64,000 nt of DNA from Sphingomonas sp. 7/4-4. GTDB lineage: Bacteria; Pseudomonadota; Alphaproteobacteria; Sphingomonadales; Sphingomonadaceae. Each line of letters opens with the position of its first letter. Within the stretch, counting starts at the first letter, position 1. Shown piece by piece: positions 50,396 to 64,000 of this stretch. The stretch is from assembly GCF_027941955.1 (NCBI RefSeq), contig NZ_CP115960.1, forward strand, positions 1,860,001 to 1,924,000, in the 5' to 3' direction. The translations under genes were made by a program, and so were the position numbers. The notes beneath the pieces were generated by a model. It saw nothing but the letters and a program-made list of their open reading frames with translations. It was not told the DNA's origin and did no database searches.

Positions 50396-50986
50396 ATGGT
50401 CATGATCAACGATGTTCTGTTGTCCGTCCGCAACCGGATCGAATCCGCGCTGCAGGCGACGCAGGCGCGCGACGAGGAGTGGATCCGGCTGACCAATCTG
50501 ACCGGGCTCGACGGCGCGGTGCAGCCCGACCTCGCCGGGCGGATCGTAATGTCGCTCGCGGCGCTCCAGCACGACACCAGCCTCGGATCATACCAGCCGG
50601 TCCGCGCGAGCGGCGGCGACAATTATGCGATCTCGAGCGCGCCGCAATTCATCGACGCTTATGTGCTGTTCACGTCGTGCTTCGTCGAGGCGAGCTATGT
50701 GGCGGGGCTCGCGATCCTCTCACGCGTCATCGAATATCTCCAGGAATATCCGGTATTCGATGCCGCGAGTTCGCCGGAGATCGGCAGCCGGATGGGCAAT
50801 CTGGCGATCGAACTGGTCAGCCTCGATCTGGGGCAGGTCAGCCATCTCGCCACGTATACCGGGCTGAAGGGGCAACCCTTCGTGCTCTATCGTCTGCGCC
50901 GCCTGCCCTTTGCCGGCGCGGCGATCACATCGGTGGCGCCGGCGGTGCAACAGGCACCCCCACCCCTGCTCCAGCCCAGGGAATGA
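50396..50986 (+). CDS. eCIS tail terminator/cap protein (DUF4255, Afp16/Pvc16-like)
   Basis: A 196-residue structural protein. The DUF4255 pattern is clear: MINDVLLSVRNRIESALQAT at the start, VMSLAALQHDTSLGSYQP, then PQFIDAYVLFTSCFVEASYV near 80 and YLQEYPVFDA near 110. It ends with LGQVSHLATYTGLKGQPFVL, followed by YRLRRLPF. In Afp and PVC particles this protein caps the far end of the tube and sheath and sets their length. Start is ATG 50396 or the in-frame ATG 50402; GAGGGGGAAG lies upstream. It is the first gene of the operon, 4 bases before the next. Confidence 0.88.
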   Translation: MVMINDVLLSVRNRIESALQATQARDEEWIRLTNLTGLDGAVQPDLAGRIVMSLAALQHDTSLGSYQPVRASGGDNYAISSAPQFIDAYVLFTSCFVEASYVAGLAILSRVIEYLQEYPVFDAASSPEIGSRMGNLAIELVSLDLGQVSHLATYTGLKGQPFVLYRLRRLPFAGAAITSVAPAVQQAPPPLLQPRE

Positions 50987-50990
50987 GCCG

Positions 50991-52193
50991 ATGACGACGA
51001 TCTTCGACTCGTTCCTCGACCAGGCGCTGCGGAGCCTGCCGCTCACTGCGCTGCAGCCACCGCCCGGGCCGACGCCGCTGCCGCCGCGCGCCGCGCTGGC
51101 CGGGCGCTACGATCGCTGCATCTCGATCGATATCCGCCACCAATTCTACAATCGCAGCGACGGCGTCTGCACCGATATCGCCGTCGAGCCGACACGCCGC
51201 ACGCTCGAGCGGCTGGCGCTGTACGGCTATGTCGTCCGGCGCCGCGCCGACGGGATCGACCTGTTCTGGGATACCGCAGTCAAGGCGCAGGCGAACGACA
51301 TCTTCGCCAAATTGCAGAGGCGCTTCGGCCAGGTGCCGCCGGACGTCTGGGCGCGGCTCTACGAACCACCTCTGCTGTTCGCGCTGCACGTCGCCAATCC
51401 GCGCTTCGCAGTGTTCACCGAAATGCCGACCGACCACCGGATCGGCGATCCGCCTCTGCGCCTGTCGAGCCGCTCCAATGTGCCGGGCACGGTCGGCACC
51501 GCGGCGCTGACGATCGACTGGAGCACATTGCTCGACCGGCCGAGCATCGTCGACACCCGCGGGATGGAAGGCGTGGGCACCAGCGTGCCGCCCCCGCCGG
51601 AAAAGGACGGGAAGGAACCGCCGCTCGATCCCGCCAAACAGGGCCCGGCCGCGCAGGAGCGCATGCAGGTCGAGCGGCAGTCGCAGGCGCTGGCGCTGCT
51701 CGATCTCCACTTCACCCGCGTCGATCCCGCGCCGTTCGAGGGCTGGGACGGGATGCCGGTCGATCGGGCACCGAAAACGCCGCGATCGGGCAAGCCCGAT
51801 TTCTTCCGCCCGGTGACCTACGCGATCCAGTTCGCCGCGCGGCAGACCCGGTGGCGCTATTTCGTCGCAGCGCGCAGCGGCACGCTCGACTCCGCCAGCC
51901 TGAGCGTAGTCGCGCCCGACGGCAGCGATGCCGGCTTCCGTCTCGACGACGCACCCCATCTCCTCCCCGACGGACGCCCCGCCGCGTGCCTGACCAGCGA
52001 CGTTCCGCGCGCGATCCTCGCCAGCCCCGAGGCGCAGCTCGCGCTGACCGGGAAGCCGCTGGGCGGGCGCAGCTATCCGCGCATCCTGGTCGACCGGCTT
52101 CCCGGTCCCGCGACCGACAGCGTCATCCCAGCCGCGACCCCACGCAGCGGTCAGCCGCCGCCGGCCTGGTCCGACATCTACGTGTTCGTCTGA
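50991..52193 (+). CDS. eCIS-associated protein of unknown function
   Basis: A 400-residue protein I cannot assign to a named family. It has no signal peptide or membrane helix. Visible parts are IFDSFLDQALRSLPLTALQP, a segment RYDRCISIDIRHQFYNRSDG, a central acidic and proline-rich linker at about 195-230 (VPPPPEKDGKEPPLDPAKQG), and a C-terminal part VTYAIQFAARQTRWRYFVAA ending PPPAWSDIYVFV. It starts 4 bases after the cap gene and ends 25 bases before the sheath gene, so it belongs to the operon. The two-part beta-rich look and the place between cap and sheath suggest a structural or assembly role. That is inference. Confidence 0.75.
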   Translation: MTTIFDSFLDQALRSLPLTALQPPPGPTPLPPRAALAGRYDRCISIDIRHQFYNRSDGVCTDIAVEPTRRTLERLALYGYVVRRRADGIDLFWDTAVKAQANDIFAKLQRRFGQVPPDVWARLYEPPLLFALHVANPRFAVFTEMPTDHRIGDPPLRLSSRSNVPGTVGTAALTIDWSTLLDRPSIVDTRGMEGVGTSVPPPPEKDGKEPPLDPAKQGPAAQERMQVERQSQALALLDLHFTRVDPAPFEGWDGMPVDRAPKTPRSGKPDFFRPVTYAIQFAARQTRWRYFVAARSGTLDSASLSVVAPDGSDAGFRLDDAPHLLPDGRPAACLTSDVPRAILASPEAQLALTGKPLGGRSYPRILVDRLPGPATDSVIPAATPRSGQPPPAWSDIYVFV

Positions 52194-52218
52194 AAGCCCC
52201 CAAAACGGGAGATACGCG

Positions 52219-53961
52219 ATGGCTACCCAGTACAAGACACCGGGCGTCTACATCCAGGAACCCGACAGCTTCCCGCCCTCGATCGTCGGGGTGGACACTG
52301 CGGTCCCCTGCTTCATCGGCTATACCCAACAGGCGACCGACACCGACAAGCGCGCGCTGACGCTGATCCCCAAGCGCATCGAATCCATGGCCGAGTTCGT
52401 CCAATTCTATGGCCGCGGCTATTCGCAGAAATATTATCTCGCGGCAGCCGATGCCGAAGCCGCGGCGGACGACGACGCGGCGACGACCTCTCCCGACATG
52501 AACTGGGGCAATGTCTCGCTCGACGGCAATACGTCCTTTGCGCTGATGCAGGTCGGCAAGACCGTGTTCAACCTCTACAACAGCATGCGGCTGTTCTACG
52601 CCAATGGCGGCGGCCCCTGCTACGTGATCTCGTGCGGCGCGTTCGAGACCGGCGGCAATCCCACGCCCATCTCCGCCGACGATTTCGAGGACGCGCTGGG
52701 TGTGTGCGAGAGCTTTGTCGGGCCAACGATGGTCGCGATCCCCGATGCGATCCAGCTCGCCGACAAGAACCAGTTCGCCAACGTCACCGCCCGCATGCTG
52801 CGCAGCTGCGCCAAGACCGGCGACCGCATCGCCTTGCTCGACATCTGGGGCGCGAACACGCTCCAGCCGCGCGACGACTGGAAGCCGGCGATCGCCGATT
52901 TCCGCAGCGGCGTGGCCTCGCAGGTGCCCCCCGAGATGTGGCGTTTCGGCGTGGCCTATTTCCCGCCGCTGGTGACGTCGGTGGTATCGCCGAGCGAGAT
53001 CGACATCTCCAACTTCGACACCGACGGCACCAACAAGACGACGCTGCAGGCGGCGTTGCTCGGCGTGCTGAGCGCAGCCTATCCGGCCCCGCCGCCGGCA
53101 CCCGCGCCGAGCCCCGCTCCAACTCCGACTCCGACTCCGAGGCCCACGCCGGGGCCCACCCCCACGCCGACCCCAACGGCGCTCACTGCGCTGAACGCCA
53201 AGGGCCAGACGATCTATGCCAGCTACGTCCAGAAGATCGGCACGTCGTTGGCGGTGCTGCCCAAGCCTGCCGACGCCAATTCGGTGGCGACCGGCATCAC
53301 CCACAAGCAGCTCACCTCGGCGCTGACCGCCACCGTGCCCGGCTTCCAAAACCTGCTCGCCGCAGTGGCCGCAACGCAGGGCGTCCTGCCGACCAGCGGC
53401 GCGATCGCCGGCGTCTGGGCGACCAACGATGCATCGCGCGGCGTGTGGAATGCCCCCGCCAATGTCGGCATCGCGACGATGGTGATGCCCAAGCTGCCGA
53501 TCGCCGGCGACGACCAGGACGATCTCAACGTCCCGGTCCAGGGCCTCGCGGTCAACGCGATCCGCACCTTCCAGGGCCGCGGCAGCCTGATCTGGGGCGC
53601 GCGCACGCTCGACAGCCTGTCGAACGACTGGCGCTACATCCAGGTGCGGCGGACGATGATCTATGTCGAGCAATCGGTGAAGCAGGCCCTGGACGCGATG
53701 GTCTTCCGCCCCAACACCGCCCAGACTTGGGTCACCGTGGTCTCGATGATCGAGAGCTTCCTCCACGGCCTCTGGGCCTCGGGCGGCTTGATGGGGAACA
53801 GCCCCGGGCAGGCGTACAATGTCGTCGCCGGGCTCGGCAGCACGATGACGCCCGACGACGTGCTCAACGGCGTGATGCGCGTGCAGGTGACCCTGCAGAT
53901 GGTCCACCCGGCCGAGTTCATCGAACTCACCTTCAAGCAGCAGATGCTCGGCGGCGCCTGA
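52219..53961 (+). CDS. eCIS contractile sheath protein
   Basis: A 580-residue sheath subunit. The N-terminus YKTPGVYIQEPDSFPPSIVG and VDTAVPCFIGYT is typical of Afp/PVC sheath proteins, and the C-terminal sheath domain is complete: SGAIAGVWATNDASRGVWNA, PANVGIATMV, then GRGSLIWGARTLDSLSNDWR, YIQVRRTMIYVEQSVKQAL. These parts interlock neighbouring rings and drive contraction. Between them, at about residues 289-321, lies an unusual stretch made almost only of Pro, Thr and Ala (PAPAPSPAPTPTPTPRPTPG). GGGAG lies upstream of the ATG. There is one sheath gene here, while Afp and PVC have three. Confidence 0.95.
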   Translation: MATQYKTPGVYIQEPDSFPPSIVGVDTAVPCFIGYTQQATDTDKRALTLIPKRIESMAEFVQFYGRGYSQKYYLAAADAEAAADDDAATTSPDMNWGNVSLDGNTSFALMQVGKTVFNLYNSMRLFYANGGGPCYVISCGAFETGGNPTPISADDFEDALGVCESFVGPTMVAIPDAIQLADKNQFANVTARMLRSCAKTGDRIALLDIWGANTLQPRDDWKPAIADFRSGVASQVPPEMWRFGVAYFPPLVTSVVSPSEIDISNFDTDGTNKTTLQAALLGVLSAAYPAPPPAPAPSPAPTPTPTPRPTPGPTPTPTPTALTALNAKGQTIYASYVQKIGTSLAVLPKPADANSVATGITHKQLTSALTATVPGFQNLLAAVAATQGVLPTSGAIAGVWATNDASRGVWNAPANVGIATMVMPKLPIAGDDQDDLNVPVQGLAVNAIRTFQGRGSLIWGARTLDSLSNDWRYIQVRRTMIYVEQSVKQALDAMVFRPNTAQTWVTVVSMIESFLHGLWASGGLMGNSPGQAYNVVAGLGSTMTPDDVLNGVMRVQVTLQMVHPAEFIELTFKQQMLGGA

Positions 53962-54001
53962 GGCCCGCTTATCCCTATCCCTTTTCTGACAGGAGCAGAT
54001 C

Positions 54002-54456
54002 ATGGCTGACGGCAGTGCACAGGACGAAGTCTGGCCGCTTCCCAAATTCTATTTCAACATCGATCTCGGCGACGGCAAGACGCAGGGCTTTTCCGAGATC
54101 AGCGGGCTCGAGAGCGAAACGAAGGCGATCGAATATCGCCACGGAGACAGCGCGGTGTTCGCGCCGATCAAGATGCCGGGGCTGCGCAGCGTCGGCAACG
54201 TCACGCTCAAGAAGGGGTGTTCACCAAGGACTCGATCTTCTGGGCGTGGTTCAACGAGACCCAGCTCAACATCATCAAGCGCCGCACGGTGATCATCAAC
54301 CTGCTCAACGAAAAGGCATCGCCGATGATGACCTGGACGCTGACCAACGCCTTCCCGGTCAAGATGCAGGCGACCGATCTCAAGTCCGACGCCAGCGAAG
54401 TCGCGATCGAGACGCTCGAGATCGCCTATGAGACGCTGGCGGTGAAGGCCGCCTGA
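54002..54456 (+). CDS. eCIS inner tube protein 1 (gp19-like), one frameshift
   Basis: About 151 residues, the ring-forming inner tube subunit. The gp19 family blocks are KFYFNIDLGDGKTQGFSEIS, GLESETKAIEYRHGDSAV and, after repair, VTLKKGVFTKDSIFWAWFNE. It continues RRTVIINLLNEKASPMMTWT and ends EVAIETLEIAYETLAVKAA. The break is at the run of four G at 54214-54217; one more restores the frame. AGGAG lies upstream. The stop TGA overlaps the next ATG. It likely forms the bulk of the tube along the sheath. Confidence 0.9.
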
Positions 54457-54986
54457 TGCCGCCGGCCGGCGCCCCTGCCGCCAAGGCTGCCGCCGACCCG
54501 CGCGAGCGGCCGCTGCGCACCGACGGCATCTATGTGCCGCCGCCGGTATTCGCTTTCCGCGTCGATATCGACGGCGCGGAAAGCGACACCAGCTTTCAGG
54601 AGGTATCGGGGCTCGAAGTGCAGTTCGAGACCGAGGATTTGGTCGAGGGCGGGCAAAACCGCTTCGTCCACCGTCTGCCGGTGCGGACCAAATATTCGAA
54701 CCTGCTGCTCAAGCGCGGCGTGGTGACGCAGGCATCGGCGTTCGGCGGCTGGGTGTCGCGTGCGCTCTCGGCGGGACTCGTCCGACAGGGCGGCGGCGCG
54801 AAGACGATCGGCATCAAGCTGATCAACGAGAAGAAGCAGCCGCTGATCGCGTGGAATATATTCGGCGCCTATCCGCTGCGCTGGGAGCACACGCCGCTCA
54901 ATGCGATGGGCAACGACGTGCTGATCGAGACGGTCGAGCTCAGCTACCAGTTCTTCCAGCGCCAGAATTTCCCGCAGGCCGCGTGA
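54456..54986 (+). CDS. eCIS inner tube protein 2 (gp19-like)
   Basis: A 176-residue tube paralogue with an extra N-terminal Ala/Pro-rich tail (MPPAGAPAAKAAADPRERPL). The core is PVFAFRVDIDGAESDTSFQE, VSGLEVQFETEDLVEGGQNR and KYSNLLLKRGVVTQASAFGG, ending VLIETVELSYQFFQRQNFPQ. In Afp and PVC a second tube type (Afp5) forms a ring near the baseplate; this gene fits that role by its place before the LysM and spike genes. The start overlaps the preceding stop by one base. Confidence 0.88.
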   Translation: MPPAGAPAAKAAADPRERPLRTDGIYVPPPVFAFRVDIDGAESDTSFQEVSGLEVQFETEDLVEGGQNRFVHRLPVRTKYSNLLLKRGVVTQASAFGGWVSRALSAGLVRQGGGAKTIGIKLINEKKQPLIAWNIFGAYPLRWEHTPLNAMGNDVLIETVELSYQFFQRQNFPQAA

Positions 54987-55192
54987 TGCCGCTGGAGATC
55001 CGCCAGATCGCCATCCAGATGCGTGTCGCCGAAGACCCCGGCGAGCAGGAGGAAGAGAGCGGGCCGCGCTCGGTGCTCGACCTCGTCGATTGCGACTGCG
55101 ACGAAGGCGACGAGGAGGAGAAAGAGGCGGCTCTGGTCGAACGCTGCGTCGAGGCGGTGCTCGCCGAACTCGCGCGCCGCCAGGAGTGGTGA
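54986..55192 (+). CDS. DUF5908 small eCIS protein (Afp6-like)
   Basis: A 68-residue acidic protein. The start MPLEIRQIAIQMRVAE is the hallmark of DUF5908, and the rest is very acidic (DCDCDEGDEEEKEAALVERC) with a short helix at the end. Proteins of this size lie between the tube and LysM genes in Afp/PVC clusters. Their role is unclear. It overlaps the tube 2 stop by one base and ends 1 base before the next start. Confidence 0.82.
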   Translation: MPLEIRQIAIQMRVAEDPGEQEEESGPRSVLDLVDCDCDEGDEEEKEAALVERCVEAVLAELARRQEW

Positions 55193-55193
55193 A

Positions 55194-55886
55194 ATGGCCG
55201 GCAAGGGCGGGCTCGACAAGCTGACCATCACCGGCTTCGCCGACCCCGGCTTCAACAGCCAGGCGAAGACTCGCCCCAATCCGATCAAGGCGATGATCAA
55301 CCCCAACCAATATTCGCAGGCGATGGGGGTCTGCTACACCAAGCAGCAGGGCGCGGGCGGCACCGGCAAGAAAGTGGTGTTCAATCGCGACAAGGGCGAA
55401 GCGCTCGAGCTCGCGCTCGTCTTCGACGGCACCGGCACCGTGCCCGACGCGCCGACCAAATCGGTCGACGACCAACTCGCCGATCTCAAACGCCTGATCT
55501 ACGAGATCAACGGCGAGATCCACTCGCCCAATTATGTCCAGCTCGCCTGGGGCAGCCTGTTGTTCAAGGGGCGGCTCAAGTCGATGGGGATCGACTATAC
55601 CTTGTTCGCGCCCGACGGCACCGCGCTCCGCGCCAAGGTGAAAGCCACCTTCCTCGGCTATCACGACAATACCGACGGCCGCGCAGCACAGAAGCTCAGC
55701 TCGCCCGACATGACGCATGTCGTGACGGTGCTCGCGGGCGACACGCTGCCTTTGCTCTGCCACCGCATCTATGGCGACAGCCGCTATTATCTCGCGATCG
55801 CCGATCATAACCGGCTCGACGATTTCCGCACGCTCGAGCCGGGCCAGGCGTTGCTCTTCCCGCCGATCGCGCAGGCCGGGCGATGA
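55194..55886 (+). CDS. eCIS LysM-domain tube/baseplate adaptor (Afp7-like)
   Basis: A 230-residue protein with an N-terminal tube-like domain (DKLTITGFADPGFNSQAKTR, AMINPNQYSQAMGVCYTKQQ, LDLAL-type strands) and a C-terminal LysM domain (THVVTVLAGDTLPLLCHRIY, DSRYYLAIADHNRLDDFRTL, PGQALLFPP). Afp7 and T4 gp53 use this layout to join the spike and inner baseplate to the tube. AGGAG lies 8 bases before the ATG. Its stop overlaps the spike gene start as ATGA. Confidence 0.9.
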   Translation: MAGKGGLDKLTITGFADPGFNSQAKTRPNPIKAMINPNQYSQAMGVCYTKQQGAGGTGKKVVFNRDKGEALELALVFDGTGTVPDAPTKSVDDQLADLKRLIYEINGEIHSPNYVQLAWGSLLFKGRLKSMGIDYTLFAPDGTALRAKVKATFLGYHDNTDGRAAQKLSSPDMTHVVTVLAGDTLPLLCHRIYGDSRYYLAIADHNRLDDFRTLEPGQALLFPPIAQAGR

Positions 55887-57682
55887 ACGCCGTCTCGCCT
55901 GCATCGAAGACCGGCCTGCCGGTCAAGCTGGCGCTCACCGCCGACGACACCAGGGTCGACACCGATCAGATCGCTTCGGTCGAGATCTGGTGGGAGGCCA
56001 ATCGCGTGCCCCGCGCGCGGATCGTGATCTATGACGGCCAGCCCGACAGCGAGACCTTCCCGTTCAGCGACGCCGAGACCTTCGTCCCGGGCGCGAAGAT
56101 CGTGCTCTCGGCCGGCTACGGCTCCGATCTCGCAGTGATCCACAAGGGCGTGGTGGTGCGCCACGGGCTGCGCATCGTCCCCGGCGCTTCGGCCCAATTG
56201 GTGGTCGATACCAGCGATCCCTTGCTCAAGATGACGCTCGCCCGGCACAGCGCCATCACGGAGAAGGCCACCGACGCGGCGCTGATCTCGGCGCTGGTCT
56301 CGGCCAATGGCGGCAGCATGCGCGGTAACGCCGCCGCTACCACACCTGTCGAGGCGATGGTGCAGGCGCATGCATCGGACTGGGATCTGATGCTGCTCCG
56401 TGCCGAGGCGAGCGGCTGCGTGGTGGTGATCGACGATAGCGAAGTCGCGGTGATCGCACCCACCGCTTCGACCAGCCCGGTGCTCACGCTCGAATATGGC
56501 GAGTCGATCCTGAGCTTCGACGCGCAGATCGATGCGGTGTCGCAGCTCGGCGACAGCGCCGTGAACAGCCGCGCATGGAGCTATTCGGACCAGGCCGTGA
56601 CCGAGGCCACGCCCGCGGGTAGCACCGATGTGACCGTTCCCGGCAATTTGAAGGCCGCGGCGCTCGCCGACGTGCTGGGCGTTTCCGCCTTTGTCCAGCA
56701 GACCGCTGCCGCGCGCGGCGAGGACGAACTCGGCAAATGGTCGGCCGCGGCATTGATGCGCGCGAAGCTCTCGCAATTCACCGGCACCGTGAAGTTCCAG
56801 GGCAGCGCGTTGGCCAGGCCGGGCGCGCACGTCACGCTGGCGGGCCTCGGCGAGCGTTTCAACGGCAATGCATTCGTCAGCGGAGTCCGCCACCTGATCC
56901 GCGGCGGCGATTGGCATACCATAGCCGATCTCGGCATGCCCGCCGAACGCTTCGCCAGCCGCGACGCGAAGATCGTCGACCCGCCCGCCGCCGGTCTCGC
57001 GCCACCGCTGCGCGGGCTGCATGTCGGCCAGGTCAAGGCCGTCGCGGAGGACCCGAACGGCGATTTCCGCGTGCAGGTCACGTTGCCGCTCACCGATCCC
57101 GACAATGCGATCTGGGCACGGCTCGCCCAACCCTATGCCTCGGAAGGGTTCGGCTGGTCGTTCTTTCCCGAAATCGGCGACGAAGTCGTGCTCGGATTCA
57201 TGAACGAGGATCCGGCGAGCGCCGTGATCCTCGCCAGCGTCTATTCGAGCCAGCGCGCGCCGACCCACACGCCCGAAAAGACCAACGACATCAAGGCGCT
57301 GGTCACCCGATCGAAGATGGAAGTGAACTTCAACGACAAGGACGTGATCCTCAAGATCAGCACGCCCGGCGGCCGCTATGTCGAGCTCGACGACGAGGCG
57401 GGAACGGTCACTGTCACCGATCCCAACGCCAACAAACTGGTGATGAAGAGCGACACGGTCGAGCTGATCAGCGCTGCCAATATGACGATCAAGTCGGCGA
57501 CCAACATGACGATCGATTGCGGCGCAAACCTCACGATCAAGGCCGCAGCCAATTGCGACATGAGTGCGGTGCAGATCAACGCCACCGCGTCGGGTCAGCT
57601 CGCGCTGGCGAGCAACGGCATGGGCTCGCTCAAGGCGGCGGCGATCCTCGAGGTCAACGGCGCGCTGGTGAAGATCAACTGA
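55883..57682 (+). CDS. eCIS VgrG-like central spike protein (Afp8-like)
   Basis: A 599-residue spike subunit, working as a trimer. The N-terminal gp27-like part includes VEIWWEANRVPRARIVIYDG and FVPGAKIVLSAGYGSDLAVI. The OB-fold follows near 375: GLHVGQVKAVAEDPNGDFRV, then WARLAQPYASEGFGWSFFPE and IGDEVVLGFMNEDP. The beta-helix end has repeats such as ANMTIKSATNMTIDCGANLT. In contractile machines this spike pierces the target envelope with a PAAR tip. There is no C-terminal effector extension. The stop overlaps the next start by one base. Confidence 0.92.
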   Translation: MNAVSPASKTGLPVKLALTADDTRVDTDQIASVEIWWEANRVPRARIVIYDGQPDSETFPFSDAETFVPGAKIVLSAGYGSDLAVIHKGVVVRHGLRIVPGASAQLVVDTSDPLLKMTLARHSAITEKATDAALISALVSANGGSMRGNAAATTPVEAMVQAHASDWDLMLLRAEASGCVVVIDDSEVAVIAPTASTSPVLTLEYGESILSFDAQIDAVSQLGDSAVNSRAWSYSDQAVTEATPAGSTDVTVPGNLKAAALADVLGVSAFVQQTAAARGEDELGKWSAAALMRAKLSQFTGTVKFQGSALARPGAHVTLAGLGERFNGNAFVSGVRHLIRGGDWHTIADLGMPAERFASRDAKIVDPPAAGLAPPLRGLHVGQVKAVAEDPNGDFRVQVTLPLTDPDNAIWARLAQPYASEGFGWSFFPEIGDEVVLGFMNEDPASAVILASVYSSQRAPTHTPEKTNDIKALVTRSKMEVNFNDKDVILKISTPGGRYVELDDEAGTVTVTDPNANKLVMKSDTVELISAANMTIKSATNMTIDCGANLTIKAAANCDMSAVQINATASGQLALASNGMGSLKAAAILEVNGALVKIN

Positions 57683-57980
57683 TGCCCCCGCCGCGCGCCT
57701 CACCGACATGCACGCCTGCCCGATGGTGACGCCGGGCGTGCCGCCGATCCCGCATGTGGGCGGGCCAATCTCGGGGCCGGGCGCCCCGACGGTGCTGATC
57801 GGCAACCTGCCCGCCGCTCGCGTCGGCGACATGGCGGTGTGCGTCGGCCCGCCCGACAGCATCGTGAAAGGCTCGGCCACCGTGCTGATCGCCGGCATGC
57901 CCGCCGCCCGGATCGGCGACACCTGCGCGCATGGCGGCAGCATCGTGCTCGGCCTGCCGACCGTGCTGATCGGCGGCTAG
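57682..57980 (+). CDS. eCIS PAAR-domain spike tip protein (Afp10-like), frameshifted at the 5' end
   Basis: About 99 residues. With one extra C in the run of five at 57685-57689 the start is ATG 57682, overlapping the spike stop, and reads MPPAARLTDMHACPMVTPGV, the usual PAAR start. Without repair translation would need to begin at the internal ATG 57708. The PAAR repeats follow: NLPAARVGDMAVCVGPPDSI and AGMPAARIGDTCAHGGSI, with His and Cys residues that bind the tip metal. It sharpens the spike. Confidence 0.9.
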
Positions 57981-57983
57981 GCG

Positions 57984-58406
57984 ATGCCCGTCCGCCCCGT
58001 CTCCTTCCTCGGCCGCGGCTGGAGCTTTCCGCCGCGCGTGTCGACGGCGACTTTGGGCACCGAGATGGAGGAAGGCGATTCCGATATCCGCCAGAGCCTG
58101 TTCATATTGCTCTCCACACCGCAGGGCGAGCGGGTGATGGTCCCGACCTATGGCTGCGACCTGCACCGTTTCGTCTTCGCCGATCTGACCGCGAGCCTGC
58201 TCAGCGAATTGCGCGAGATGGTCAGCACCGCGATCCTCCGCTGGGAGCCGCGGATCGACCTGCTCGACATCACCGCCGCCGTCGACGCCGCCGATCCGGC
58301 TCTGGTGCTGATCGGGATCGATTATCGTGTCCGCGCGACCAACACGCGCAACAACCTCGTCTTCCCCTTCTACAAGAACGAAGGCACTTTGGTGGAGGGG
58401 CCATGA
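57984..58406 (+). CDS. eCIS baseplate protein, GPW/gp25 family (Afp9-like)
   Basis: A 140-residue gp25 homologue with lysozyme-like relatives in T4 baseplates. The pattern is SFLGRGWSFPPRVS, then EGDSDIRQSLFILLSTPQGE, RVMVPTYGCDLHRFVFADL with the EPR-type motif in AILRWEPRIDLLDI. It starts the baseplate wedge and docks to the sheath. It lies 3 bases after the PAAR gene and overlaps the next start by 4 bases. Confidence 0.92.
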   Translation: MPVRPVSFLGRGWSFPPRVSTATLGTEMEEGDSDIRQSLFILLSTPQGERVMVPTYGCDLHRFVFADLTASLLSELREMVSTAILRWEPRIDLLDITAAVDAADPALVLIGIDYRVRATNTRNNLVFPFYKNEGTLVEGP

Positions 58407-61400
58407 CCGGTCCTTCCCCGCTGATCACGCGCTGGACGACACAGGCCGGCCGCGAACCGCCCGCCTTCGCGCCCGAACGTGCACGGCTCGATCCGCGCGG
58501 GCTGCCCGAACTGCTCGCCGACATCGCCAGGCTCGCCGCGGATATCCCCTTCCACAACGATGCCGGCGCGGTGGAGGGCGACTGGCGCAGGATCCTGCTC
58601 GCCGATCGGAGCTTCGTGCTGGCCTTGCTCGCCACCGCCGATATCGACGCGCGCGCCGAGCCGCTGACCGCGCTTCTCGAACAGGCGCGCGGCATCGGCA
58701 GCCCGCGCGAGCACGAGCGACGCCTGACCGAGTTGGTCGAGGCACTGCTGCGCTTCGCCGACGATCTCGACGATTGGCTCGGTCCCGCCGACCTCGGCGA
58801 GGCGACGCAGGGGCGATCGATCCGACAGCTCGCCGAAGACGCCGTGGAGAGCGTGCTCGGGCCGCAGCTCCAGCGCCTGTTCGACGAAGTCGTCGCGGGC
58901 GAGGCCGCGCTGGGCGAGCACTTCCACCACCATCATTGGGACACGCCCCGACCATGGCGCCGCGCCGTGATCGAGGGCGAGATACACGGCGTCGCCGAAG
59001 CCGTCGAACGCGCCTGGGCCGGCCGCATGCTCGAAGCGCTCGCCGATGCCGTGGAACGCTTCCTCGACGAGATGCGCGAGTGCGAAAAGCGCGCGAATAT
59101 GGCGTTCAAAACGACGTTGCACGCGGGCGATCACAGCGCGCACCCAGCGCTGGTGATAGCCTTCGCGCAAATGTCCCTCCACGCCCGCAACCTCCTGAAC
59201 GCAGTGCCGCAGCACCTGATCGATTTCTACCAGCAGGAATTGCTCCACGCCGCGCCCGCGCAGAGCCAGCCCGATCATATGCTGGTGGCAGTGGAGCCGA
59301 AGCCGGGGACGCGGCCGACCTTGGCCAAGGGGACCCTGCTCCCCGCCGGCAAGGATGCGAACGGGCGCGGGATCGCCTTCGCGACCGATGCGCCGCTGGC
59401 CGTCACCGGCGCAGTGCTGCGCGAGGCGCGGCTGTGGTGGCCGGAGAATGGCGACATCACTCTGCATCGCATGACACCGGGGCCGGACGGGCGCCTCGGC
59501 GATGCGGCGACGGGGATCGCGGCACCGCCACCGGGCGAACCATTCGAGGCGAGCGCAATCTTCTCCACCTCGCTGCTCGGCCTGGCCGGCGGCACGCGAC
59601 GCGTGGGGCTCGAACTCGATCTCGGCGGCGGCGTCGACATGACGGGCGCGGAACTCAGGCTCTGCGTGTCGACGGCAAAGGGATGGCTACCCGTGCTTTC
59701 GCCCGATTGTTCGTTCGATTCGGGCACGCTGACCGTGAGCTTCACGCTGCCGCCCGACTTTCCGCCGCTCGCCCCCTGCTCGGAAATCACCGACGCAGTT
59801 CTCCAACCCGCATTGCGCCTCACCCTCGTTGCCGGAGCGCTGCCGGAAGCGCGCCTCACCGACGCCCGGCTGAGCATCGCGGTCAAGGACCTGCCCGACC
59901 TCCAGATACGGACGCCCGCGGGCCTCGCCAGCGCGTCGGCTGCGGCCCCGTTCGGTGCGCCGCCCTGGCCCGGGGCTGGCTGCGCGTCGACCATCCCGTG
60001 CTGGCCGGCCCCCGCTCGATCGGCTGGTGCTGCGCTTCGACTGGGCCGGGCTGCCGCCGGGCGATGGCGGGTTCGCCGATTATTATCGCGGCTATGTCGT
60101 CGATGGGCAGGGGCAGTTGTTCGACTTCTCGCCGTTCGACAACGCGGCATTCGCAGTGACGCTCTCGGCGCCGGTGCACGGCTGGGACGTCGCCCAACGC
60201 CTCCCGCTGTTCGCGCCCGCAAGCCTCGACATCGCGCCGCCGGTGTCCGCCGCGCCTCCTCCCAACGTCTTCGCCGCCGAGTTCGAGCCGGCGCCGCCGC
60301 TGATGCCCGAACGCGGCCCGCTCGCGCCCGGTTCGTGGCTCGCCGCCAGTGCCAGCGACAGCGGCGAGCCGCTTCCCGACCATATCTGCGTGACGCTTGC
60401 TGCGCCGACATACGGTTTCGGCCACTCGCTCCACGCAGCGAACGTTCAATATGCCACCGAGGCGATCGCCCGGGGCGACGCGCCCTCCCCGCCCGGCCCG
60501 GCTTCCTCCGGCGCCTGTTCGCCGCGATCGTCGCGCTGCCCGGCAAGCTCTTCAAGAGGATCGAGGGCATCGAAGCCGAGCTCGCGGCGCCGGAGCCGGT
60601 GGTCGTGCTGCTGCCCAACCCGCCCTTCCAGCCGCTGCTGTCCGGCATCGCACTCGATTATGCGCGTACTCTGGGGGCCGACGCGCTCACGCTGCACCAT
60701 GCGGCGACGCTCGACAGCCCCGCCGAACTCCCGATCGTCGGCGCGCCGCTCTTCCCCGCCGGGCCTGACGCACTGACGCTCGATTTGTACTTCGAAGGTG
60801 CGCAGCCGGACGACGTTCTGGTGCTGCTCGTCCAACTGGCGGCGAGCGACGCGGGCGACTTCAGCCCCGGCTACCGCTATCGGATCGCGGACGATTGGAC
60901 ACCGCTCCCTTCCCGCGCGCTGCTGGCCGACGAGACCAACGGGTTCACCACCACCGGCATTCTCCGGGTCGCGGTGCCCACGGATGCGGCGCAGCCGTTC
61001 GGGCTTCGGCTGACGTTCGCCGACGCCGCCACGGTGCCGCCGACGATCGTCGCGATCCTTCCCGACGCGGTCTCGGCGACCCGGGTGATCCATGGCACAG
61101 AGACGGCGATGCCGCCCGTGCCGACGGGCACCGTGACCAAATTGCCGGGCACGATGCGCGTAATGCAGCCGCTCGACACCGCCGGCGGCCAGCCGCCCGA
61201 GCCGCCCGCGATGCTACGCGCCCGTACGGCCGAGCGCGTCCGTCATCGCAATCGCGCGCTTGGCGCTTGGGACATCGAGCATCTGGTACTTTCCGAATTC
61301 CCCGACGTGGCGCAGGTGCGGGCATTCCCCGAAGGCGATCCCGCCCGGCAGGCGACGGCTGCCAATGTCACGGTGGTCGTCACCGCTGCGGGCGGGGCGC

Positions 61401-61792
61401 CCAAATTACCGCGGCAATTGCGGGCGGCCATCGCCGATCGGCTCGCGCAAATCTCCAGCCCGTTCGCCCGGATCTCGGTGGTCGATCCGATCGCGGTTCC
61501 CATCCATGTCTCGGCTCGCCTGATCCTGACCGATGCCGATCCCGGCCCGGTCGAGGCGGCCCTGGCCGGCTTTCTTTCGCCGGGTGCCGAACCGGGCCTC
61601 GATCTCGCCGACGATACCGGCATCGATCGCGTCCGCGCCGGGATCGCAGAATTCCTGCTGCACCTGCCGCAGGTACGCGCGCTCGATCGCCTGACGGTGG
61701 GATTGGGCGACGCCCCGCCCGGCTGGCACATGGCGGTGCCCGGCGCGATCGAAGTGGTCGGCGTCGCCGCGACAGCCTCGGCATCATGGTAA
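58403..61792 (+). CDS. eCIS baseplate J/gp47-like wedge protein (Afp11-like), three frameshifts
   Basis: About 1,131 residues after repair. The N-terminal helical part (GLPELLADIARLAADIPFHN) leads to AFAQMSLHARNLLNAVPQHL, then IDFYQQELLH near 280. The C-terminal gp47-like domain has RVRHRNRALGAWDIEHLVLS, EFPDVAQVRAFPEGDPARQ and LPRQLRAAIADRLAQISSPF. Breaks lie at 59946-59949, 60009-60013 and 60487-60490; one base in each run restores VDHPVLAGP, PLDRLVLRFDWAGLPPGDGG and PGFLRRLFAAIVALPGK. It forms the baseplate wedge that triggers contraction. A histidine-rich cluster (HFHHHHW) occurs near residue 175. Confidence 0.85.
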   Translation: MTGPSPLITRWTTQAGREPPAFAPERARLDPRGLPELLADIARLAADIPFHNDAGAVEGDWRRILLADRSFVLALLATADIDARAEPLTALLEQARGIGSPREHERRLTELVEALLRFADDLDDWLGPADLGEATQGRSIRQLAEDAVESVLGPQLQRLFDEVVAGEAALGEHFHHHHWDTPRPWRRAVIEGEIHGVAEAVERAWAGRMLEALADAVERFLDEMRECEKRANMAFKTTLHAGDHSAHPALVIAFAQMSLHARNLLNAVPQHLIDFYQQELLHAAPAQSQPDHMLVAVEPKPGTRPTLAKGTLLPAGKDANGRGIAFATDAPLAVTGAVLREARLWWPENGDITLHRMTPGPDGRLGDAATGIAAPPPGEPFEASAIFSTSLLGLAGGTRRVGLELDLGGGVDMTGAELRLCVSTAKGWLPVLSPDCSFDSGTLTVSFTLPPDFPPLAPCSEITDAVLQPALRLTLVAGALPEARLTDARLSIAVKDLPDLQIRTPAGLASASAAAPFGAPPWPGAGCASTIPCWPAPARSAGAALRLGRAAAGRWRVRRLLSRLCRRWAGAVVRLLAVRQRGIRSDALGAGARLGRRPTPPAVRARKPRHRAAGVRRASSQRLRRRVRAGAAADARTRPARARFVARRQCQRQRRAASRPYLRDACCADIRFRPLAPRSERSICHRGDRPGRRALPARPGFLRRLFAAIVALPGKLFKRIEGIEAELAAPEPVVVLLPNPPFQPLLSGIALDYARTLGADALTLHHAATLDSPAELPIVGAPLFPAGPDALTLDLYFEGAQPDDVLVLLVQLAASDAGDFSPGYRYRIADDWTPLPSRALLADETNGFTTTGILRVAVPTDAAQPFGLRLTFADAATVPPTIVAILPDAVSATRVIHGTETAMPPVPTGTVTKLPGTMRVMQPLDTAGGQPPEPPAMLRARTAERVRHRNRALGAWDIEHLVLSEFPDVAQVRAFPEGDPARQATAANVTVVVTAAGGAPKLPRQLRAAIADRLAQISSPFARISVVDPIAVPIHVSARLILTDADPGPVEAALAGFLSPGAEPGLDLADDTGIDRVRAGIAEFLLHLPQVRALDRLTVGLGDAPPGWHMAVPGAIEVVGVAATASASW

Positions 61793-63680
61793 TACCCGCG
61801 GTCATCGCCCGCGATCCGGTGGTGCCGCCCGCACAGGATTTCGACGCACTCAAGAGCGAGGCGATCGGGCTGCTCCAGCAATTATGCGCGCACTGGACCG
61901 ACTATAACGCACACGATCCGGGCGTGACTTTGGTCGAGCTGCTCAGCTATGCGCTGACCGATCTCGGCTATCGCGCGACGCTTCCGGTCGCGGACCTGCT
62001 CGCCGGCGCGAAGCTGGCGACGCAGGACGGCATCTATCCCCCTGGCGCGCGCTGCCCTCACCACCCGTGACGATCGCCGATTTCCGGCGCCTGCTGCTCG
62101 ATCGCGTCGACGGACTGGCCAATGTCTGGCTGACACCGCGGCGCGGCGGCGCCGATGTGGACGGGCTCTACGACATCCGCCTCCACGCCAGGCTGCCGTT
62201 GCCGGGCGTGCATCCGGAGCCGCACCCCCACTATCGCGATCTGGTCGCCCGGGCGCGGCGCGTCTTCCGGCGCAACCGGCCGCTCTGCGAGGATATCGGT
62301 TCGATCCGCGTGCTTCGGCCACTGCGGACGACCGTGAGCGCTGACGTGGCGATCGATCGCGGCGTGCGGCCCGAGGCGGTGATGGCCGAAGCATTGTTCC
62401 GGCTCGCATTGACCCTGGCGCCCGAGCCGCGACGATCGGGACTGGATCCCGCCGGTCCCCCGATTCCCGATGGCCCGCTGCTGACGAACGGCTTGTTCGC
62501 GGCGGGTGAGCTGACCGACAAGCCGGCGAGCATCGATCGCGAAGCGCTGGCCGAGATCCTGCGCGACGTGCCGGGCGTGCTGCGGGTTTCCGATGCGCGA
62601 TTATGGGTGGAGGATCACGGGTGGTGCGACGGCACGGTCCAGATCGACACCGACTGCTATTGCAGTCTCGATGCCGGGATCGAAAGCGACGCGCTGCCGC
62701 TGGCGCTCAGCCTCGACGGGCGCGCATGTGCGGTCGATCGCGGCGACGTGCTGCGGCGATTGCTGCGGCGCTGGGACGCCCATCGCGCGGATCACCCACT
62801 GAAGGCCGCCTACCGGGAAACCTTCATCTTGCCCGAGGGACGCGCCCGCGCGCTCGCCCGCTTTGCGCCGCTGGGGCCGCAACTCCCGCGCGTCTATGGC
62901 CTTGCCGGCACCGGCAAGCCGGAGAGCGCCGCGGCGGCGCAGCTTCAGGGCTTTCTCGCCCTCTTCGAGGCAGTGATGCGCGGCATGTGCATCCGGCTGG
63001 ACGAGGTCGCGGCGCTGCTCGGCGGCACGATCCCCGCGGACCTTCCTGCGCAGCACCGGGAGGACCTGCTGGACTTGCTGCTCGCCCTCTACGGCGTGCC
63101 GGCCGACCGCATTCCGATACCGCCGCGCCTCACAGGCTCCCGTCAGGCAGCCACGCTCCATCGCGTCACGATCAAGCAGACTTTGCTCGATCATCGCGCG
63201 ACGCTGGCGAGGCGCCGTGGCCGGGGCTTCGATCCCGATGCGCGCAGCAGGATACGCCGGGAAGCCGGCGCCGCTTTCCAGGCCAATCTCCTTCTCGGAG
63301 GCGGTCCTGGCCGGCACGGCCGCGTCTGCCTGATCGAGCATATGATGCTGCGCCCGCGCACCCGCGCCCGCCGCGAGCTCGAACAAGGCCGCTTCACGTA
63401 CGCCATGGCGGTCAGCGCGGGGATCGCGATGCGCGACGAAGAGCGCCACGATCCCCGCTATCGCGCAGAGATCGAAGCCGCGATCCGCGATGCGCTGCCC
63501 GCGCATATCGCGCTGCACGTCCACTTCCTCGATCCGCCACGATGGCGGCGGCTGCATGATCTCAGTCGCCTTTGGCATGCCGCGCTTGCGCTCGATGAGC
63601 GGCATGCCGCCGATCAGCTCGCCGCCGAGCTCCGCGACCTGCTGGAGCGCTGGTCGCAGCGCGAGCGTGCGCGCGAATGA
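61786..63680 (+). CDS. eCIS second baseplate-region protein (Afp12-like), one frameshift
   Basis: About 631 residues. The first part reads AQDFDALKSEAIGLLQQLCA, HWTDYNAHDPGVTLVELLSY, ALTDLGYRA, a motif seen at the start of Afp12-type proteins (DPGVT-LELL). The frame breaks at the run of five at 62038-62042; one more C gives YPPWRALPSPPVTIADFRRL, LLDRVDGLANVWL, the strongly conserved block of the family. The remainder (LLEQ-type helices, ALFEAVMRGMCIRLDEVAAL, CLIEHMMLRPR) belongs to the same protein. It overlaps the preceding gene by 7 bases and the next by 4. Confidence 0.82.
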
Positions 63681-64000
63681 CGACCAACGGCGCGGTGATC
63701 GAGGCCGAGATCGCCTGGTTCCGCGAAACGGTGGACCTGCGCCTCGACCTCCATGCGCGCGAGGCTGACGGCGATCTGCTCGCCAGCGTTCCGGTCCCCG
63801 AACTGGACGATCTGCCTGTGCCCTATGCCGACGGCGTGCGCGAAGCCGGTCTCGCACCTGCGGAACGGCTCGTTCTGATGCTCGCGCTGCTGCCGCACCT
63901 CCGCCCGCAGGCGCTCGACCACTTCCTGATCCAGAACGATGCGAGCAAACGCCGCTTTACCGAATTCGGCGGAGCGGAAGGCGGCACGCAGCACGGATTT
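63677..64000 (+). CDS. eCIS operon protein of unknown function, 3' end cut by window edge
   Basis: The first 108 residues are visible, starting TTNGAVIEAEIAWFRETVDL and including GLAPAERLVLMLALLPHLRP, then FGGAEGGTQHGF at the edge. The FTEFGG-type turn followed by a His recalls a hypothetical protein found before the AAA+ ATPase gene in other eCIS clusters, but the fragment is too short to be sure. The ATGA overlap with the previous gene shows the operon continues beyond the window. The fibre, tape-measure, ATPase and effector genes should lie there. Confidence 0.7.
   Translation, partial: MTTNGAVIEAEIAWFRETVDLRLDLHAREADGDLLASVPVPELDDLPVPYADGVREAGLAPAERLVLMLALLPHLRPQALDHFLIQNDASKRRFTEFGGAEGGTQHGF

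Follow-up and report, generated by a model that had tools for sequence, protein, structure and literature searches.

A contractile injection system operon without a recognized tail-fiber gene in Sphingomonas, and candidate cargo encoded beside clpB

We analyzed a stretch of 64,000 nt from Sphingomonas sp. 7/4-4 (assembly GCF_027941955.1, contig NZ_CP115960.1, positions 1860001-1924000; the window, below), whose genome, labeled G000, is a single contig of 4.42 Mb. Window positions 50396-64000 hold 13 of the 14 genes, all on the plus strand, of one operon of the extracellular contractile injection system (eCIS) type. We propose that this operon encodes a machine of the AlgoCIS/thylakoid-CIS lineage that has no recognized fiber gene and likely injects a swappable eCIS_core protein encoded about 1.8 Mb away beside clpB, a reading to which we give a probability of roughly 60%. 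As far as the sequence goes, it is carried by the 14 genes and the place where the operon ends, a short Cis12, eCIS_core proteins in all eight genomes that have the operon, and a shared clpB site at which the C-terminal parts of these proteins differ. The machine is likely of a known kind, as a fiber-less variant with an off-site, swappable cargo slot.

The operon is 18.3 kb long and runs 4.7 kb past the end of the window, which cuts gene 13 and leaves gene 14 wholly outside. Its genes, in order, and the candidate cargo gene are as follows.

50396..50986, plus strand: Cis16A cap, Pvc16_N (formerly DUF4255), 196 residues (PF14065, E 3e-15)
50991..52193, plus strand: Cis16B-like protein, likely cap adaptor, 400 residues (PDB SalCis16b, E 3.6e-4)
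52219..53961, plus strand: Cis2 contractile sheath, 580 residues (PF17482, E 2.8e-10)
54002..54456, plus strand: Cis1a inner tube, gp19-like (PF06841, E 1.1e-12 and 2.5e-22 on its two pieces)
54456..54986, plus strand: second tube protein, 176 residues (PF06841, E 7e-37)
54986..55192, plus strand: Cis6, small plug-type protein DUF5908, 68 residues (PF19265, E 2.6e-11)
55194..55886, plus strand: Cis7, tube initiator or LysM adaptor (CIS_tube), 230 residues (PF19266, E 2.4e-49)
55883..57682, plus strand: Cis8, VgrG-like spike, 599 residues (PF04717, E 4.2e-19)
57682..57980, plus strand: Cis10, PAAR spike tip, frame broken near its start (PF05488, E 2e-22 on 57708-57980)
57984..58406, plus strand: Cis9, gp25-like sheath initiator, 140 residues (PF04965, E 3.6e-25)
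58403..61792, plus strand: Cis11, baseplate J-like wedge protein (PF04865, E 9e-4, below the family cut-off)
61786..63680, plus strand: Cis12, second wedge protein, frame broken once (profile of ten relatives)
63677..64000, plus strand, continuing to L008:1014 (genome 1925014): Cis15 AAA+ ATPase (PF00004, E 5.5e-27 on L008:1-1014)
L008:1019-4661 (genome 1925019-1928661), beyond the window: Cis14 tape measure, frame broken once (PF19268, E 4e-25)
G000:C1:3754780-3755583, minus strand: likely cargo, eCIS_core protein between M28 peptidase and clpB (PF13699, E 5.9e-11)

Cap, sheath, tube, spike, PAAR, gp25, baseplate J, AAA+ ATPase, and tape measure are all present in this one operon. The original prediction had seen 13 close-packed plus-strand genes here, and both the gene set and the coordinates hold in Pfam searches and against profiles of relatives. 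It had the junctions as mostly overlaps of 1-7 bases, which is the case for 7 of the 12, the other 5 being gaps of 1-40 bases (with the PAAR start placed by homology with relatives). A halogenase gene does adjoin the operon (PF04820, E 2.6e-180), and ARAGORN finds no tRNA gene in the whole window, in line with the claim that none lies at the junction. The second gene, first left as unknown, weakly matches the cap protein SalCis16b. Past base 64000, where AAA+ ATPase, tape-measure, fiber, and effector genes had been expected, the first two are found and the last two are not: the operon stops with the tape measure (stop at L008:4661, genome 1928661), and the next gene is a dehydratase.

With the Cis8 spike as marker, we surveyed 295 genomes of the genus and found the operon in 8 of them (spike identity at least 69%, this genome included); the named relatives are Sphingomonas sp. 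UNC305MFCol5.2, S. naasensis, Sphingomonas sp. Root241, S. xinjiangensis, Sphingomonas sp. IC-56, and S. gei. No tail-fiber gene was recognized in the 14-gene operon or in the operons of six of six relatives with downstream DNA examined, all of which end at the tape measure, with a non-CIS gene next (judged from lists of open reading frames). The S74 fiber domain (PF13884) was absent from all eight genomes with the operon, and the same search finds one inside a different CIS operon, that of genome G303. Beyond the CIS set there is no extra large gene in the operon, although the sequence of Alg19 itself was not compared. Fiber genes are reported to be missing or unidentified in many eCIS operons (PMC12923769).

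The second wedge protein is short. Cis12 is 585-635 residues long in relatives, and a profile built from ten of them matches Anabaena All3315 (E 4.2e-95) and Alg12 (E 4.8e-91), covering residues 7-831 of the 933 of Alg12 but skipping about 100 internal residues. The skipped residues belong to the outer part of Alg12, which is where the AlgoCIS papers place the fiber contacts (PMC8894135, PMC13314943). For Cis11, a profile of six relatives finds Anabaena All3317 (E 1.8e-55) and Alg11 (E 4.8e-43), and it aligns to Alg11 residues 286-496, the cage in domain IV (independent E value 2.7e-4). Structure models of Cis11 and Cis12 were made from the S. gei proteins; the Cis11 model reached a predicted template-modeling score (pTM) of only 0.47.

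On the proposed reading, particles would form around the tape measure in the cytoplasm, and the Cis15 ATPase would help to load the eCIS_core protein via its common N-terminal part, as for DUF4157 cargo in the AlgoCIS tube. Particles would leave when some cells lyse. Having no fiber, they would make first contact by a cage around the spike, likely built from Cis11, and opening of the cage would trigger the sheath, as modeled on AlgoCIS. A competing microbe appears the most likely target.

The candidate cargo belongs to a class with a known tie to these machines: DUF4157, now eCIS_core, is described as strongly linked to eCIS toxins (PMC8213781), and DUF4157 proteins are reported to fill the tube lumen of AlgoCIS (PMC8894135). 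We found PF13699 in 61 of 295 genomes. It occurs in 8 of 8 genomes with the operon, in 8 of 9 with a second kind of operon described below, and in 45 of 278 others (Fisher p 2.8e-11, uncorrected for relatedness). A shorter-matching subtype of eCIS_core is more sharply distributed, being present in 16 of 17 carriers of either kind of operon vs. 11 of 278 other genomes (p 2e-18, likewise uncorrected, with the subtype defined after the hits had been seen); outside both kinds, 10 of its 11 carriers have a Pvc16_N cap gene, and the eleventh, G303, has a CIS operon. In G534, two eCIS_core genes lie inside a second-kind operon, between Cis12 and the tape measure. Among 15 eCIS_core proteins, the N-terminal 120 residues are alike in 105 of 105 pairs; the C-terminal parts are alike in 2 of 91 pairs. 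A second Pfam family was seen in 1 of 14 proteins scanned, as a weak C39-like peptidase match in G437 (E 6.5e-4, below cut-off).

The gene for the candidate cargo occupies a recurring chromosomal site. In seven of the eight operon genomes, an eCIS_core gene is found in the interval from an M16 peptidase gene to clpB, with the order M16 then M28 in five of the seven. Among the matches listed, M28 and ClpB genes are adjacent in 49 of the 295 genomes, to which G000, G503, and G581 are added; of those 49 intervals, 13 hold one to four eCIS_core genes, 15 are shorter than 300 bases, and 21 have other content. Cargo thus sits at the clpB site in at least 16 genomes (the 13 among the matches listed plus the three added). 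All 16 have a Pvc16_N cap gene, vs. 4 of 15 genomes in which the site is empty and 7 of 21 in which it has other content (among the matches listed). By machine, the 16 comprise seven with this operon, two with the second kind (G350, G411), one with G303's kind, and six with other CIS judged from the cap gene. Of 45 pairs among ten proteins at the site, one pair has C-terminal parts that are alike. A literature search found nothing that links DUF4157 with clpB.

This genome has two further CIS loci, named CIS-B and CIS-C, and three Pvc16_N cap genes in all, and one of the two strongest alternatives starts from them: the clpB-site protein may serve CIS-B, CIS-C, or any CIS, with the window's operon having another, unrecognized cargo. 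The six clpB-site genomes with neither this operon nor the second kind fit that view. Against it, every one of the eight operon genomes has an eCIS_core protein, and in G581 and G503, both with cargo at the clpB site, the operon's cap gene is the only one found. We regard this alternative as on the doubtful side, though a serious contender.

Several observations weigh against the proposed reading. G303 combines a short Cis12 (674 residues) with an S74 fiber gene, so a short wedge is no proof that a fiber is absent, and a divergent or unlinked fiber gene may exist. Among the eCIS toxins of a published training set, 88% are encoded no more than ten genes from their operon (PMC11297309), which makes an unlinked cargo unusual. 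G378 has the operon, an empty clpB site, and its eCIS_core gene elsewhere; G395 has a second-kind operon and no eCIS_core protein. Six of the 16 cargo-site genomes have neither operon kind, so the site is not specific to the operon, and cap genes do occur where the site is empty or otherwise filled, in the numbers given above. The association tests ignore relatedness and include a post hoc subtype, and the cargo could serve either of the two further loci. Particle loading, release, and target are our inferences by analogy.

Sheath and wedge proteins place the operon with the AlgoCIS/thylakoid-CIS lineage (subtype Ib) rather than with Afp/PVC, as judged from bit scores and not from a tree. Against structures in the PDB, the sheath scored 360 bits with SalCIS, 291 with AlgoCIS, 276 with the Anabaena thylakoid CIS, at most 183 with PVC/Afp, and 129 with the S. 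coelicolor type. Cis12 gave 323 bits with Anabaena, 309 with Alg12, 235 with SalCis12, and 162-140 with PVC/Afp; Cis11 was less decisive (Anabaena 192, PlPVC1 151, Alg11 150.5). The original prediction of an Afp/PVC set was right in that the operon is of eCIS type but too broad in its label. It had also held that the operon is neither type VI secretion nor a prophage, and both points stand: TssM (IcmF_C, PF06744) was absent from all eight operon genomes, with a positive E. coli control, and a Pfam scan of 14 flanking proteins turned up no capsid, portal, or terminase.

One of the closest described systems is AlgoCIS of Algoriphagus machipongonensis. According to its accounts (PMC8894135, PMC13314943), it shares with the Sphingomonas operon the caps 16A and 16B, a plug-type Cis6, a LysM adaptor, Cis12, a large Cis11 (ours with a region matching the cage), and the DUF4157 class of cargo. 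It differs in having a fiber such as Alg19, for which no gene was recognized in the Sphingomonas operon, in its Cis12 (933 residues vs. about 630), and in keeping its cargo inside the gene cluster, whereas the Sphingomonas candidate is far from the operon. The thylakoid-anchored CIS of Anabaena, as described (PMC8894136), has the best PDB matches for both Cis12 and Cis11 and also a bipartite cap; however, Sphingomonas Cis12 does not have its large insertion, which the alignment skips, and neither a Cis13-type membrane fiber gene nor a Cis19 crown gene was found in the Sphingomonas operon. SalCIS (PDB 9r9h, 9r9n, 9rce) provides the closest solved sheath and the sole significant Cis16B match, but SalCis12 has 804 residues; a literature search found no published paper on SalCIS. 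Afp/PVC share the core of cap, sheath, tubes, spike, PAAR, gp25, Cis11/12, AAA, and tape measure. They have several sheaths (Afp2-4/Pvc2-4) vs. the single sheath gene of the Sphingomonas operon, which in turn has the extra, cap-adaptor-like Cis16B as a second protein, no recognized Afp13/Pvc13-type fiber gene, and no linked toxin genes.

Since the Anabaena thylakoid CIS supplies the nearest solved wedge proteins, the machine could be membrane anchored like T6SSiv and the thylakoid CIS, held by baseplate extensions and firing outward. The cage site of T6SSiv is reported to attach that apparatus to the inner membrane (PMC8894135). The missing TssJLM does not by itself exclude such a mode, because T6SSiv, a relative of AlgoCIS, and the thylakoid CIS are described as anchored by other parts (PMC8894135, PMC8894136). 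Cis12 is, however, without the long Anabaena insertion, the operon has no Cis13-like gene, and a hydropathy scan, a crude test, found no clear membrane helix in the operon proteins (highest 19-residue mean 1.93). Anchoring therefore seems distinctly unlikely to us.

The absence of a recognized fiber gene bears on the other of the two strongest alternatives. Streptomyces cytoplasmic CIS reportedly act without release (PMC10066040, PMC12237407), and the present machine might do likewise, firing inside its producer under stress and needing no fiber. A recent catalog noted that fiber-less loci might act intracellularly and left them outside its scope (PMC12923769), and the CIS of Streptomyces and Roseiflexus are described as cytoplasmic or probably so (PMC12998442). 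Yet the sheath scores far higher with SalCIS, AlgoCIS, and the thylakoid CIS (360-276 bits) than with the S. coelicolor type, the baseplate proteins match the Streptomyces ones only partly, and the variable ends of the cargo resemble inter-strain weapons and not a fixed suicide protein. We consider self-action unlikely, while noting that sequence gave no means of separating the Streptomyces mode from that of T6SSiv.

The second kind of operon came from the same survey. Spikes at 39-42% identity occur in 10 genomes, nine of which carry it; the tenth, G306, was dropped as a carrier because it has an orphan spike only and no Cis12, and the Fisher test was rerun. Tape-measure and AAA+ genes precede the cap in the second-kind operons examined, and no fiber gene was recognized in four of them (G392, G350, G393, G534). 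A glycoside-hydrolase-like domain, PF08924, lies in the Cis12 frame of 6 of the 9 (G392, G393, G395, G446, G526, G534) and in a separate frame in G411 and G532, and it is absent from G350. None of the eight genomes with the window's kind of operon has it. In second-kind Cis12 (e.g., L064:1702-5115), the domain is C-terminal behind a proline-rich linker, with a long histidine run in G393. The two eCIS_core genes within the G534 operon (L090:8395-13830, reverse-complement coordinates) have two glycosyltransferase-like open reading frames beside them, as judged by eye.

A wider proposal, tentative and in our estimate short of an even chance, joins these observations. The M16/M28-clpB interval would be a chromosomal arming site where payloads replace one another or accumulate, one to four per genome, to arm several CIS operons, and the fiber would have been dispensed with twice, by a trimmed wedge plus cage in the window's kind and by PF08924 fused to the wedge in the second kind, where the fused domain would bind or cut the target's wall. 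The literature searched held nothing that links DUF1906/Rv2525c with CIS.

Research on eCIS particles treats them as devices for protein delivery, with the choice of target ascribed to the fibers. A 14-gene operon that has no recognized fiber gene and is retained by several named Sphingomonas species would offer a small natural system for the question of baseplate-only targeting. If the proposed reading is true, one syringe could be re-armed with new payloads, a fixed payload-swap site would help to find CIS cargo overlooked by searches centered on operons, and comparative genomics could link cargo to machine.

Five genes of the operon are not single open frames in this assembly: tube 1, PAAR (at its start), Cis11, Cis12, and the tape measure, with seven breaks in total, three of them in Cis11. 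In the named relatives, the tube, Cis11, and Cis12 have open frames (Cis1a intact at 151 residues in six of them, Cis11 at 1133 in S. gei), except Cis11 of IC-56. Compared with the closest relative, Sphingomonas sp. Root241 (L016), every break has a single base missing at a G/C run or next to one, and six of the seven fall inside a run of at least 4 in that relative. Isolated one-base changes amount to nine losses and zero gains over 18,266 bases of the operon, four losses and zero gains over 11,729 bases of downstream sugar genes, and three losses and three gains over 12,137 bases upstream; relative against relative, there were two losses and one gain over 16,552 bases and zero losses and one gain over 12,891. 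Homopolymers of at least 6 number 8 in 184,000 bases here vs. 35 in 129,238 and 95 in 324,040 of relatives, or 4.3 vs. 27-29 per 100 kb, an about sixfold depletion.

Because relatives are intact and long homopolymers are depleted, we attribute the breaks very likely to sequence or assembly errors; the organism itself likely has an intact operon. Seven breaks in five genes could also mean a decaying pseudogene cluster. This we judge highly improbable, given the uniform one-base losses with no isolated insertion in the operon, the homopolymer deficit, the intact genes of relatives, and like damage elsewhere: the sugar genes are broken too, as are M16, M28, and clpB at the cargo site (clpB being 95-96% identical to the G416 copy), and a completeness score of 88.8% for a one-contig genome fits. 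Programmed frameshifting was rejected on the relatives' open frames and the like breakage of sugar and clpB genes; a natural two-gene Cis12 was rejected since six named relatives have one open frame, and a separate gene for the Cis11 N-terminal stretch since it is continuous with Cis11 in relatives. Studies that work from the proteins of this genome will meet many false pseudogenes. In Sphingomonas sp. IC-56, an early stop lies inside the Cis11 match (L018:14443), and one natural copy may be broken.

Of the remaining operon proteins, Cis16A was also recovered by the family search (G000:C1:1910426-1910950). The Cis16B-like protein matched no Pfam family, and its match to SalCis16b spans residues 39-144 only; that to Anabaena All3326 was not significant (E 0.36). 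It has 24 homologs, every named one from sphingomonads, and among 298 genomes sampled from the family, of which six belong to the genus, it was found in this genome only. The sheath has a proline-rich insertion near residues 290-320, and the plug role of Cis6 is taken from the literature.

CIS-B (G000:C1:2529199-2544243, minus strand; L010/L011) has, by search, a Pvc16_N cap, two sheath-like stretches, CIS_tube, a GPD spike, and Baseplate_J; it adjoins a sigma-54 activator and has tube-like open reading frames by eye, and G416 and G339 have weak spike matches like its own. For CIS-C (G000:C1:3971608-3989628; L012/L013), searches recover a cap gene, a sheath with a broken frame, and a spike; gp25-like and tube-like frames were recognized by eye, and four large frames have no Pfam match. 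Several other genomes have a weak CIS-C-type spike match about 15 kb from an eCIS_core frame of roughly 1000-1200 residues. At the clpB site, 21 of the 49 M28-clpB intervals hold 0.6-5.5 kb with no eCIS_core gene (among the matches listed), and in G350 an outer-membrane-receptor-like frame lies beside the cargo; the site may be a general insertion hotspot.

Upstream of the operon, the halogenase gene is paired with a TonB-receptor gene. Downstream, the dehydratase is followed by GH127, arabinofuranosidase, and GH43 genes, a hemicellulose locus. The same dehydratase follows the tape measure in 4 of 6 relatives, and the chromosomal place of the operon is partly conserved. In S. xinjiangensis, a transposase-like open reading frame, seen by eye, lies between PAAR and gp25 (L017:13005-14348). 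Beyond the hemicellulose genes, from L008:17684 to L009:17035, there are very long repetitive minus-strand open reading frames that are apparently frame-broken.

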